From assembly GCA_902702965.1 (NCBI GenBank), contig CACRXP010000091.1:1436805-1500804 (forward strand): a stretch of DNA of 64,000 bases. The letters run 5' to 3'. The DNA comes from Spirometra erinaceieuropaei. Its lineage: Eukaryota; Platyhelminthes; Cestoda; Diphyllobothriidea; Diphyllobothriidae. The position numbers and the translations under genes are program-made. The notes under the pieces are model-generated. The model saw nothing but the letters and a program-made list of their open reading frames with translations, made no database searches and was not told the DNA's origin. Below, piece by piece: positions 3,886 to 45,641 of the stretch (position 1 is its first letter; each line of letters opens with the position of its first letter).

Positions 3886-4242
3886 AGATTCTAGGCAACG
3901 GTATGCAGAAGGGCCCCACTTGACTGTCAGTAGGCTGTGGATCGTGCCATACGTCATTTATGGTAAAGGGAGTTTTGTGGGTGGGGCGGCACGCTAGACA
4001 GTAAGCCGACAAAATGAAAAAAAACACAGAAATTGCCCGGATTTATGCCAAAAGTCTTATCCTACGGAAATGAGAGCAGCAATTAAACAATAAACAAAGA
4101 GCAAACTTCACAAAGTAATCGTTGTTGGCAGTGTACGTTTTGCAACAGCCGGCAAATTTATACCAAGATGAAACCTCATATGACACGATCCACGGTCTAC
4201 TGACAGTTAAGTGGGGTCCTTCTCTATACCGTTGCCAGATTC
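3886..4242. repeat. Short inverted repeat beside PLE 3' tail
   Basis: A ~65-75 bp segment starting at 3886 (AGATTCTAGGCAACGGTATG) recurs in reverse orientation ending at 4242, with several mismatches and a ~230 bp loop. The right arm abuts the 3' tail of the minus-strand PLE copy, so this may be another inverted PLE terminus. Confidence 0.5.
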
Positions 4243-10052: not shown

Positions 10053-10322
10053 GTAAGTCCTCTTAAGTCCTCTCCATTATTACAAGTCAAGGGAAACTTC
10101 TAAATACAAACGAACGAATAATGGGTATGACTAAATACTGATGACCTATTGAACCGGAGCTATTTTTCGTTTATCATGGCGAGGTTTTAAAAAAATATTA
10201 AGCTGGAAAATACATCTGGTGGGGATTGCTTATATGCTCAAGATCTCCCGGCACCACAATGGAACAGGAACCACCCACAGCGCATCTGACTTTGCGCTAA
10301 ATTCCAGGTAAATTAGGCTTCA

Positions 10323-10400
10323 GGTTAGGGATGGAGTTAGGGTTAGGCTAAGGGCTACGGTTAAGGTTTGGGCTAGGATAAATGTTAGGTCTGAGACAAG
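10323..10400 (+). repeat. Degenerate TTAGGG array
   Basis: GGTTAGG, GTTAGGG and GGCTAGG units recur with errors. This is a decayed interstitial telomere-like array. No terminal inverted repeats are visible around it, unlike the arrays at 25649 and 42815. Confidence 0.6.
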
Positions 10401-25009: not shown

Positions 25010-25418
25010 TAAACACATTGTTGGGTGCCCTTTCGCATGCAATACATGTCAGACATGGAAACAGTCAAGTTGTCCGTTACAGTTCGGTTTCTGGGTCGGG
25101 TTTGATCCTGCAGCCCCAATGGCGGTAGGGAAACCGTAGGCGCCTGTAATGAGGGAATGATGGTAATAGGGGTTTTACGGGTGGGGCCTCAGGGCAGGCC
25201 AGGGAAAGGAGCAAATGTAGGAAGGTGAAAGGAGTCGTATTCGAACAAAAGAAGATGGTTTGAAAGAGGTGAAATTTGAAGGAATAATACAACAAGTAAA
25301 GGATGCGTAGAACAGTTTGCGGAGGCCGGTGGAGGGTACGATACTAGGAAAAATGTGACGGGAAAGCTGTCGACCAATAAAAAATGGGAACGAATTGCGA
25401 AGGTCGCTCCGAAAAATG

Positions 25419-25968
25419 GGTAAGATGTGGTTATGCAGCCGCACCTGATGGGCACAATACTGTTTACCTACTTAATTATTTTGAGTTGGTGTAATTACGT
25501 TGGCGTGATGTTTCTGTGCGTTGCGGTGTGTGTTTTGTTGGCGGCCTTGTTTCTTTGTTGCCGTGTCTACCTTTTTCGGCCCAAATCCGGTGGTCGTTCT
25601 TGACTTTCGGCCTGTCATATCCTTCTAACTTTCGCGTTGGATGTTTCAGGGTTAGGGTTAGGGTTAAAGGGCTAAGGTGGGGGTTGGGGTGAGGTCTGAG
25701 AGTTAGGGGGTTAGGGCCTAGGGCTAGGGGTTATGGTTAGGGGCTAGGGTTAGCGGTCAGGGATCAGGGTTAGGACAACTACTTTTCAGCCACCCAAAGT
25801 ACGACCTCCAATTCCCAATAGCGTTTCTTTTGAATACATTTGCTTGATCTCGTCGTCTGTGAGTTTCCCCGGCCCCACCTGTAAAAACCCCCATTACCCC
25901 GGCGGTCCCGTATTAGAGGTGGCTGGGGTTTGTTTATCTCAGGTGCGGCTACATAACCACATCTGACC
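25419..25968. mobile_element. TIR element carrying a telomere-like array, copy 1
   Basis: Ends GGTAAGATGTGGTTATGCAG (left) and the reverse complement of GGTCAGATGTGGTTATGTAG (right) form ~29 bp TIRs. A perfect 8-bp direct duplication, GAAAAATG, flanks them at 25411-25418 and 25969-25976. Eight-bp duplications are typical of hAT and P-type transposases. The interior holds a decayed TTAGGG array (25649-25773) and no gene of its own, so it is non-autonomous. Confidence 0.8.
25649..25773 (+). repeat. Degenerate TTAGGG array inside TIR element
   Basis: GGGTTAGGGTTAGGGTTA is followed by variants such as GGGGTTAGG and GGGCTAGGG. The unit matches the animal and flatworm telomere repeat. Confidence 0.85.
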
Positions 25969-26219
25969 GAAAAATGTTCAAGGAAAATGATGGATAATCG
26001 AGATAAGGGCGCACAATAAAGCGAACTAATGGCCACGGGAAGCAGTAAAGCAACTGAAGTAACTGAAGTGCGTCGTGGAATTTTTAACTTAAGAGAGCGG
26101 TAGCCAAAATGAAGTAGTATCTCATGAAGCCGTGAAGTCACTCGGTGAAATAAATGGAGAGTGCTAAGTAATTGCGCGGTCCCGGGGGTTTTAATAGCGG
26201 CTGTATACAATCCGGATGA

Positions 26220-27900
26220 ATAAATATTTTAATTATTTAGTTTGCAGACCGTAAAAGAGCAAACAGCGCAGAGTCGGGGGCACAGTCGGACGAAACCACG
26301 GAGTTAACAAAATGCAGGAGGTATTCAATTCGCCTCACCAAGTGCAGTATTTAGAAGAAGGAGGACTACTTGCCTCGAGGGTTTACCAACGCCGCAGACC
26401 AATAACACTGCAGGTATTACGGCAGCATACGGATGGATGCATGTTTAGGTATGCCAGTACACCCAAGCAGGCATGGTTTTAGATGCAGTCAATACTGAAC
26501 AAATATTACAGGTTCTTGAGTGAGTGCAAAAAAATAACTCAGCACGACGTGAACTCGTCACACCCCAAGAATGTTGGAATTGATTCGCCTGAACGATTGG
26601 AACGAAAGGACTGTTTTAACGCTAGACCTCCTAGTTTCAGAAGAGACCGAGCTACCGACTTGGACTGGGGCGGTGTTAGAAAGAAGCAGGCTCACATTAA
26701 CGTCTTAACAGTGCCGTTGACGCATGTAGCCTAGCCACTCGCTGGATTAGGAGGCTAGGTCAGTGTGCCCTGACACTATTTTAACTTAATCTCTCCTACT
26801 CAAAGAAATTCGGTGGGTTGACCGTGTGACATTCGTCAAGTGCGGCTGCATGACCAAACCTTACCAGTTCACGCGAGTATTAATCACATAGGCAAGCCTT
26901 CATTGCATTAAAAGTATCCTCCCTGCCGCAGACAGGTGCCGACTGTTGTCTCCGAAGATCACTCCCTTTATCGTACCGCCTGTCAGTGAAATGTGACAGC
27001 ATATCGCGTGTACTTCAAGTGTATTTACTTAAGTTCTTTAGTCCTCAGCGTGGTAAATCATGTTTGTGCCCGCCTTTTACGGCAAAAATATCGTCTATTT
27101 GCAAATGTGAATGTCCTATACTTGACCTGCCACCCTTTTCTTCAAAACGATGTGATTTCTCGTAAATGGTCTGGTCCGACTTTGTAGACGCGAAATCCGA
27201 CTTACCGGGTGGAGAACAAACTTGGTGCGGACTTTTCTCACTTATGTTAAGACTTTTTAGAGCAAAACCTACACAAGTAGGCGACCTTGGCCTGCGATAT
27301 TCAACAACATAGGAAATTCTTTATATATCAGAGTACGTCCACTTTTAACTACAAATGTCCAGTTTTCTTCTCATAACACAGATTCTAAACGTGTTGGATG
27401 ATGTACCATACTGATAGCACAGGTCTTCGGCGCCGCAAATTGATTTTATGTGCAGAAATAGCTTCGCCCATTGTACGACGTGCTGTTCAGTCCAAGTTCG
27501 TTTACGAAACTGCTACGGCAACAACAACAACGAAAAAACTACCAACTGCTTCCACAACTATTTCTGCTACCACAAATACTGCTGACGATTCACTCGTTTC
27601 AAAAGACGACGCCCACCCCTGTTGTACGAGATGAGCGCATCAGTGGTGACTTGCCTTCAATTAGTTTATAGTTAGACAGGCTTGTGACGCACCTACCTCG
27701 CCCTCTCCACCGCTCCTCATCATGCGACTGCGGCAAGACATAGTCAAAACGTGTGTGTGTGTGCCCTCTAAACGGGCCACGTGTTAGATGCGCCGGACCA
27801 ACACGGGGGCCGCATCGGACTCTGGCAGGCGTTATCTGTGCGCAATAACAAATGCCAACATTCCCGGGGCGCGCTGGCGGACCCTGTTCTCAGCATTCGT
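26220..27900. other. No supported gene
   Basis: Several short open frames (for example 26483-26734 and the ACA-rich 27398-27634) lack splice support and family motifs. The ACAACAACA run near 27520 is low complexity. I see no other structure. Confidence 0.35.
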
Positions 27901-31887: not shown

Positions 31888-32072
31888 CTAGGGTTAGCAT
31901 TCGACCTAGGTTTAGGTCTAGGGTTAGCAAAGGAAGTTATGAGTAAGTGTCAGCGGTCAGGGTTAGAGGTTAGGTTCATAGGTTATGATTAGAGGTTAGA
32001 ACTGGAGTCAGGATAAGAGGGTGGAATTAGAACTACGGTCAGGCTTAGAGGTTAGCTTTAAGAGTTAGACTA
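31888..32072 (+). repeat. Very degenerate TTAGGG-like array
   Basis: AGGGTTAGC, GTTAGAGG and GGTTAGGTT units recur without strict period. It has no visible TIR. It is the most decayed of the four arrays. Confidence 0.5.
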
Positions 32073-42766: not shown

Positions 42767-43104
42767 GGTAAGATGTGGTTTAATAGTCCCGCCTGATGGA
42801 CACAATACTGTTGGGGTTGGGATTACGGGTTAGGGTTAGGGGCTAGGTTAGGGGTTAGGGCTAGGGGGTGAGGTTAGGGAGTTAGGGCTAGAAGTTAGAG
42901 TTAGGGGGTTAGGGCAACTATTCCTCAGCCATTCAAAGTACAACCGCGCATTCCCAATTGCTATTCTTTTGCATACAATTACTTGACCTCGTCGCCTGTG
43001 CATTCCCCGACCCCACCTGCAAAAAGCCCTATTACCACTGGTCCCGTATTAGAGGTGGCTGGGGTTTGTTTACTTCAATTGGGGCTACATAACCACATCC
43101 GACC
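42767..43104. mobile_element. TIR element carrying a telomere-like array, copy 2
   Basis: Ends GGTAAGATGTGG and the reverse complement of GGTCGGATGTGG match copy 1, as does the unique sequence on the right of the array (CCCGTATTAGAGGTGGCTGG). The interior TTAGGG array is at 42815-42917. Flanking 8-mers GTTAAAAT and GCTAAAGG match only partly, so this copy is older. It is about 210 bp shorter than copy 1. Confidence 0.75.
42815..42917 (+). repeat. Degenerate TTAGGG array inside TIR element copy 2
   Basis: GGGTTAGGGTTAGGGGCTAGG and similar units. Confidence 0.85.
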
Positions 43105-44526: not shown

Positions 44527-45641
44527 CCTGCCAGCACATGGCTCCTTCATAGGCGGGGCTGGAGGGGGCTGGGCGGGGCCAGAGCCCCCTCTGGATTGAA
44601 GCCTTTTGAAGCGTATTTGCATCGAAAGATATGTTCCAAAAGCACCACTTATTGTACCTTCTTTGGAATTTAAAGGAGCTAATTTATCAAAATTGGCTTA
44701 TAAACCATGGAGAAAGCATCCGTTTACGCCCACTGAATGTAGCTGCGGATGAGCACAATATATTGAGGTTTTGTTTAAGTCCCTCATTGCTCAAACTCTT
44801 ATTTGTCCACCGGTTTACAATCTGTGTGTTATTAATTCGTATATTTGACAATGGGGACGATATTTTAAAGTGGTGCCAAAAGTGGGCTGGGATGTGGCGT
44901 CCCCTGCGCATTTTTTTTCGCTGGCGGGGCTAGGCGGGGCTATCGCGTTGCATGCCCCGCCACAGCCCCCTCCACAGCCCCGCCTAGCCCCCTCATAGCC
45001 CCCTCTAGCCCCGCCATTATTGAGGGGGCCAGGCGGGGCTAGGCGGGGCTGGTGCTGGCAGGGAAGATAAATAGGGTTACAACCCGTAAGCATGTATTAC
45101 GAACCCCTGCCAGCACCAGCCCCGCCTAGCCCCGCCTGGCCCCCTCAATAATGGCGGGGCTAGAGGGGGCTATGAGGGGGCTAGGCGGGGCTGTGGAGGG
45201 GGCTGTGGCGGGGCATGCAACGCGATAGCCCCGCCTAGCCCCGCCAGCGAAAAAAATGCGCAGGGGACGCCACATCCCAGCCCACTTTTGGCACCACTTT
45301 AAAATATCGTCCCCATTGTCAAATATACGAATTAATAACACACAGATTGTAAACCGGTGGACAAATAAGAGTTTGAGCAATGAGGGACTTAAACAAAACC
45401 TCAATATATTGTGCTCATCCGCAGCTACATTCAGTGGGCGTAAACGGATGCTTTCTCCATGGTTTATAAGCCAATTTTGATAAATTAGCTCCTTTAAATT
45501 CCAAAGAAGGTACAATAAGTGGTGCTTTTGGAACATATCTTTCGATGCAAATACGCTTCAAAAGGCTTCAATCCAGAGGGGGCTCTGGCCCCGCCCAGCC
45601 CCCTCCAGCCCCGCCTATGAAGGGGCCATGTGCTGGCAGGG
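44527..45641. mobile_element. 1.1 kb near-perfect palindrome made of two inverted TIR units
   Basis: Left unit 44527-45063 and right unit 45105-45641 are inverted copies with very few differences seen (for example an 8-T versus 7-A run and one base near the outer end), separated by 41 bp. Each unit is itself bounded by CCTGCCAGCAC inverted repeats. Inside the ends are clusters of GGCGGGGCT and AGCCCCGCC. Both units contain the same open frame (44631-44933 plus, 45126-45536 minus), starting MFQKHHLLYLLWNLKELIYQ. No transposase is present. Confidence 0.85.

Follow-up and report, generated by a model that had tools for sequence, protein, structure and literature searches.

A Telomere-like Array Within a Probable Non-autonomous Merlin Transposon Family of the Tapeworm Spirometra erinaceieuropaei

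Introduction

Interstitial telomeric sequences are commonly interpreted as traces left by fused chromosomes or repaired breaks. Tandem-repeat-containing MITEs, which are small non-autonomous elements with terminal inverted repeats (TIRs) and an internal tandem array, are one class of mobile sequence that may be compared with them, and such elements were reportedly described in the clam Donax trunculus by Satovic and Plohl in 2013. Transposition by mobile elements is named merely as a possible mechanism for interstitial arrays in one article (PMC6410037), and another describes telomere-associated Penelope-like retroelements, which are found at chromosome ends and carry TTAGGG repeats at their 3′ end (PMC4522978). 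Elements of the Merlin superfamily are characterized by GG ends, inverted repeats of 24–462 bp, and duplications of 8 or 9 bp (PMC8101967). In a literature search of titles and abstract openings, none of the matches listed named a TIR transposon that carries a TTAGGG array in its interior. This study focuses on an element of this description in a stretch of 64,000 nucleotides of S. erinaceieuropaei DNA, referred to as the window, and on its genomic family, probable superfamily, and proposed history.

The Element and Its Relatives in the Window

The element under study, referred to as copy 1, comprises the following features.

25419 to 25968, forward strand: copy 1, a putative non-autonomous Merlin-type element of the long class, 550 bp, recognized from its ends, duplication, genome family, and end homology to a transposase-bearing element
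25419 to 25448, forward strand: left terminal inverted repeat, 30 bp, beginning GGTAAGATGTGG
25939 to 25968, reverse strand: right terminal inverted repeat, 30 bp, complementary to the left at 28/30 positions
25411 to 25418, forward strand: GAAAAATG, the 8-bp target duplication on the left side
25969 to 25976, forward strand: GAAAAATG, the 8-bp target duplication on the right side, an exact repeat of the left
25649 to 25775, forward strand: decayed array of TTAGGG, TTAGGGG, and CTAGGG units, 127 bp

An earlier reading from the sequence only had proposed inverted ends of about 29 bp, a perfect 8-bp duplication, and an internal decayed TTAGGG array. The inverted ends are real, with a measured length of 30 bp, and the duplication is exact on both sides; the array is likewise borne out, with five TTAGGG and three CTAGGG units and a local alignment score against (TTAGGG)n of 113, compared with 28 for the best of 50 shuffles. 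With up to three mismatches allowed, the end pattern of copy 1 matches the window twice, at its own two ends (0 expected from 100 shuffles). A scan of the window for inverted pairs with exact 8-bp flanking repeats returned eight places, two of which, copy 1 (24/26) and 3894–4236 (23/26), combine a non-palindromic repeat with good arms; five mononucleotide shuffles together gave one place at any arm quality. No Rfam family matched at gathering scores.

Two relatives of copy 1 are located in the same window.

42767 to 43104, forward strand: copy 2, a short-class member of 338 bp with the left interior missing, flanked by GTTAAAAT and GCTAAAGG (5/8 by eye)
42813 to 42916, forward strand: array of TTAGGG-like units within copy 2, approximately 105 bp long
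25094 to 26865, reverse strand: copy 3, an older, decayed Merlin relative with ends approximately 71% identical to those of copy 1
26216 to 26455, forward strand: N-terminal fragment of an IS1595-like (Merlin) transposase, preserved as a remnant within copy 3 and matched in tblastn at E 7e-15 by the corresponding frame of locus L045

Copy 2 shares 79% identity with copy 1 over 299 aligned positions in the right part. Copy 1, together with its duplication, is inserted within copy 3, and no array of copy 3's own was seen in its sequence outside copy 1. Because the flanks of copy 3 agree at only 4/8 positions (by eye), it lacks a clear duplication of its own. The transposase remnant contains one internal stop, and Pfam gave no match for 26261–26452 in copy 3 or for any of the three N-terminal fragments scanned.

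A second locus with copy 1 nested in copy 3 (G000:C693:242188-243668; L002, L052) is 86–95% identical by piece, and is either a segmental duplicate or an uncollapsed haplotype of the nested arrangement in the window. Two other structures in the window were recorded. The TIR element at 3894–4236 has GGCAACGG ends with arms of 23/26 and is flanked by an exact duplication of 8 bp, AGATTCTA; a TTAGGG array was not seen in it, and its left subterminal part bears a marginal likeness to the right end of the copy 1 family (score 36, best shuffle 35). A near-palindrome of 1.1 kb at 44527–45640, 97% identical to its own reverse complement, contains G+C-rich tandem repeats.

A Genomic Family With Eight-base Target Duplications

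The genome (758,707,415 bases in 1932 contigs) was searched with the whole unit and with an array-free segment of it (25775–25968). The whole-unit query gave 5439 first-look candidates, and all 40 that were scored matched near full length at 78–100% identity, the best apart from the window itself being 92%; the array-free query gave 3580 candidates, and all 40 scored match. Since three of the 2 × 40 scored places are common to both lists, 77 distinct places are confirmed, and thousands of copies beyond the scored ones are likely present in the genome.

Target duplications were compared in 30 fetched whole-unit copies, among which L001 and L002 represent one insertion and flanks are shared within the pairs L004/L005 and L023/L025. 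The duplication agrees at 8/8 bases in 8 copies, at 7/8 in 9, at 6/8 in 5, and at fewer in 8. At least six of eight bases are therefore duplicated in 22/30 copies, compared with 27/870 mismatched flank pairs. Only a spacing of 8 yields a match (183/240 positions), the values for spacings of 6, 7, 9, and 10 being 59/180, 76/210, 80/270, and 92/300. Furthermore, 20 of the 40 scored copies of the array-free set were fetched, L083 and L084 among them sharing flanks; the left end was located in 18, of which 12 have a duplication of at least 6/8 and 6 of fewer bases. Element length is 517–562 bp in the 30 whole-unit copies and 255–578 bp in the 18 array-free-query copies. The search for genomic copies with both ends that the sequence-only reading had recommended has thus yielded copies, 8-bp duplications, and variation in array length, and its identification of a TIR DNA transposon holds, as the copies share consistent ends, 8-bp duplications, and the array.

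The Array as a Constituent of the Element

Each fetched copy was aligned locally to (TTAGGG)n and compared with 20 shuffles of itself. An array is present in all 50 fetched copies as well as in copy 2: the score is at least twice that of the best shuffle in 30/30 whole-unit copies, and above every shuffle in 20/20 array-free-query copies, 15 of them by twofold (the arrays of L090, L091, L093, L096, and L101 fall below this). For the latter set, the stretch tested was the final 452 bases up to the trimmed end, with flanking DNA included where the element is shorter. The array spans 95–141 bp in the whole-unit copies and 14–160 bp in the array-free-query copies. In the consensus of the 30 copies, units of 6 and 7 bases, TTAGGG and TTAGGGG, alternate, and the orientation of the TTAGGG strand relative to the ends is the same in all copies, the exception being one stray CCCTAA in L086.

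The family is divided into two size classes, a long class that keeps the left interior and a short class in which the array directly follows the first ~46 bp. Members of the short class are 9/20 array-free-query copies (4/20 were left unclassed by the script), L104, and copy 2 in the window. L105 resembles them, its left end not being scored as found. The short class has also moved, because L088, L093, and L094 carry exact duplications of their own. Being short, with TIRs, many copies, a variable internal tandem array, and no transposase seen, the family has the features of a tandem-repeat-containing MITE.

Arrival of the Array at the Copy 1 Site

The flanks of copy 1 were joined with one GAAAAATG and compared with loci from a genome search with copy 3, in which 40 of 97 candidates were scored and 31 loci were fetched; six pairs of these coincide, so that 25 distinct places are represented. 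At 22/25 places the alignment runs across the joined junction without the element, and these are paralogous unfilled sites; of the remaining three, two hold the element (the copy 1 locus and its C693 duplicate) and one is without junction coverage. The target reads GCAAAATG at several unfilled sites and is more changed at others. The array at the copy 1 site, therefore, arrived with the transposon.

Telomerase repair of a break (break repair being one published explanation for mammalian interstitial telomeric sequences; PMC2246262 and PMC7215372) or an ancient chromosome fusion might have placed the array at copy 1, the inverted ends then being coincidental. Such an array would lack transposon ends at its site, whereas both ends and a duplication are present here; the exactness of that duplication, the 28/30 agreement of the ends, the occurrence of the same unit at many places, and the 22 unfilled paralogous sites all contradict these two processes at this locus, where we consider them scarcely credible. 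Either process could, however, account for other arrays in the genome.

Superfamily Assignment

A 5′-GG start is common to both copy 1 and copy 2, to the consensus of the 30 copies, and to the longer elements L045 and L078. The family thus combines 5′-GG, TIRs of at least 24 bp (30 bp in copy 1), and an 8-bp duplication, as in Merlin, and its ends are related, not identical, to those of IS1595-like elements (L045; L078-type). A genome search with the domain PF12762 (DDE_Tnp_IS1595) gave 1702 first-look candidates, and all 150 that were scored exceeded the curated cut-off; the same search was positive in 1/14 control genomes. For a Merlin transposase frame of this genome, the closest proteins are from Sparganum proliferum and from S. 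erinaceieuropaei, the latter with 89% identity over 71% of the query and 97% over 43%; this points to a diphyllobothriid tapeworm as the probable host and agrees with the flatworm source assumed in the sequence-only reading.

The main transposase-bearing relative, L045, is an element of 2,703 bp with GG ends, an exact duplication (CTTTGCTG), and a PF12762 match with one internal TAA. The right 110 bp of the family consensus aligns with its 3′ end at a score of 75 (best of 200 shuffles, 34), and the left 90 bp aligns weakly at the left of L045 (45, shuffle best 37). Between the left end of L045 and the family's right end in inverted form there is no match (19 versus 28 for the best shuffle). 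In an automatic end search of 20 transposase loci, a full element with an exact duplication was returned for L045 only, and a 6/8 candidate for L050.

Eleven copy-3 relatives (L071–L081) were fetched at greater length. The consensus matches nine of them at one end or at both; its positions 84–449, which hold the array, match none of the 11. N-terminal or middle transposase fragments occur in at least 10 of the 11 among the matches listed (none there for L079), and a search of the 11 with DDE-domain frames gave no DDE match at E 1e-3. Seven with both ends plausible, paired in order by script, are 1.2–2.1 kb in length with 6–12 mismatches in 30 end positions. L078 is the only one of the 11 with an exact duplication, TGGATTTG (L080 and L081 have 6/8), and both of its ends are homologous to those of the family (86 versus 44 and 65 versus 33 for the best shuffle).

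Three sequence features place the unit as a putative non-autonomous member of Merlin: its GG ends, its 8-bp duplications, and the homology of its ends to the 2.7-kb element matching DDE_Tnp_IS1595. The earlier suggestion had been a hAT- or P-type transposase. Both of these superfamilies also make 8-bp duplications, which fit the family, but GG ends do not fit hAT termini, and the homology of the ends is to elements with an IS1595-like transposase. As ends and relatives point to Merlin, in a transposase search that covered PF12762, hAT and P are set aside as very improbable movers of the family. The sequence-only reading had asked for a full-length relative encoding a transposase; a longer element with related ends and a transposase match exists, although that transposase is of Merlin and not of hAT or P, and a complete element with exactly the ends of the family and an intact transposase was not found among the loci examined. 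Two transposase loci with family ends were considered as autonomous copies and rejected: L031 is read as a copy of the family interrupted by a Merlin element of 2.7 kb that inserted separately, and in L039 the family is represented by just 63 bp of a right end. The inserted element of the former (L031:160-2847) has an apparent 8-bp duplication, GGCCGCTA (by eye).

Telomere Motif and Arrays Outside the Family

Perfect (TTAGGG)4 occurs at 23 separate places in the genome (62 overlapping matches), and stretches were read at all of them, 14 of these being 71–181 bp long. At eight contig ends the motif lies in telomere orientation within 120 bp of the end (L103, L106, L111, L113, L118, L121, L123, L124), TTAGGG occurring there as telomere. 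Variant units, TTGGGGG and TTAGGGG, occur among the contig-end repeats, and at the start of contig C1556 (L103) TTAGGG is mixed with TTGGGGG.

Of the 15 interstitial places, 3 are within the family (L104, L105, L109), and 12 were not placed in it (L102, L107, L108, L110, L112, L114, L115, L116, L117, L119, L120, L122), 8 of the latter being viewed in 151–181 bp only. These 12 include other satellites and three stretches with N runs; the end in L107, GGTAAGAT, differs from that of the family. The window itself contains decayed TTAGGG-like arrays without family ends at 10313–10389 and about 31906–32070. Furthermore, TTAGGG similarity was scored in 32 control stretches from parts of the window not occupied by the family; one reached 69 and one 26, the rest being at most 15, and as the two highest are decayed arrays of their own, TTAGGG-like arrays also exist outside the family. 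In view of the 3/15 sites and the window arrays without ends, the family is one carrier of such arrays and not the sole carrier. The proposal that the array came inside a transposon rather than by other means accordingly stands for copy 1, with its 22 unfilled sites, and does not extend to interstitial arrays in general, given the 12/15 sites not placed in the family.

A different unit was observed at L107:311-472 and L100:239-388, with an end GGTAAGATCGCAGTTGG beside TTAGGG-like repeats and one end seen; it is possibly a second array-bearing transposon.

Proposed History and Origin of the Array

Copy 1 very probably belongs to a large non-autonomous Merlin (IS1595-like) family with a telomere-like array in its interior, which would have spread in the steps proposed below. 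The proposal draws on direct observation of the ends, the 8-bp duplications, the unfilled sites, the array in every copy fetched, the end homology to an element with a Merlin DDE match, and TTAGGG at eight contig ends. Briefly, one founder may have gained a TTAGGG-type array in its interior. A Merlin transposase acting in trans, the best-supported candidate driver on present sequence comparisons, would have recognized the GG...CC ends and moved the unit, making an 8-bp staggered cut at each target, and the array would have been taken along at every jump with its orientation to the ends unchanged. A later single deletion presumably joined the left end to the array and gave rise to the short class, which would also have spread. 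Array length may then have been altered by slippage or unequal exchange, and the arrays would have decayed by point mutation.

Two origins of the array are compatible with this Merlin explanation. The founder may have captured telomeric or interstitial telomeric DNA, for instance in templated repair of an excision gap, the array then becoming fixed. The array motif is the same as that at the contig ends, and the array-holding consensus 84–449 is without a match in the 11 copy-3 relatives, 9 of which match at the ends; against this, no intermediate was seen, the arrays are short and mixed, and the family holds just 3/15 interstitial perfect (TTAGGG)4 sites. We give capture roughly an even chance. 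The array could also be an internal minisatellite that grew by slippage from a G-rich seed without telomeric ancestry, an origin for which the alternation of 6- and 7-base units in the consensus and the wide variation in length (14–160 bp) speak, as does the existence of MITEs with internal tandem repeats (PMC5615363). Its unit, however, is the motif found in telomere orientation at eight contig ends, and variant units alone are no argument against telomeric ancestry, because contig ends hold TTGGGGG and TTAGGGG too; we regard a minisatellite origin as quite conceivable, if somewhat short of even odds.

A bolder extension of the Merlin explanation is that the transposon took up genuine telomeric DNA and scattered patches of the telomere motif, perhaps thousands of them, through the genome. 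Such patches may be bound by telomere proteins, may be fragile or help breaks to heal, or may seed new telomeres, and the array may even benefit the element by steering its insertion or tethering. We consider this extension unlikely.

Comparison With Known Systems

A DNA transposon family has spread telomere-like sequences in a tapeworm genome, the unfilled sites being the proof at one locus. Because of this transposon-borne spread, neither an interstitial array nor a TTAGGG probe signal in this tapeworm or its relatives should be taken as a mark of fusion until family ends have been checked. Furthermore, the copies of the family amount to replicates of a short telomere-like tract within a single genome, on which breakage, healing, and telomere-protein binding can be tested.

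Like the interstitial telomeric sequences of mammals, the tapeworm arrays are short decayed TTAGGG tracts inside chromosomes, but they lie inside a transposon with target duplications, whereas the mammalian tracts are attributed to break repair. With Penelope-like elements, as described in PMC4522978, the family shares the character of a mobile element bearing telomeric repeats; those are retroelements with repeats at the 3′ end, whereas in the tapeworm the carrier is a DNA transposon and the array lies in its interior.

Within the Merlin superfamily, the family agrees in its 5′ GG ends, inverted repeats, 8-bp duplications, and end homology with IS1595-matching elements of its own genome; it differs in that no transposase was seen in it and that its interior, at approximately 84–449, is unmatched in the copy-3 relatives tested. 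The MITEs said to occur in D. trunculus differ from it in that the array unit of the tapeworm family is the host telomere motif and its superfamily is, in all probability, Merlin.
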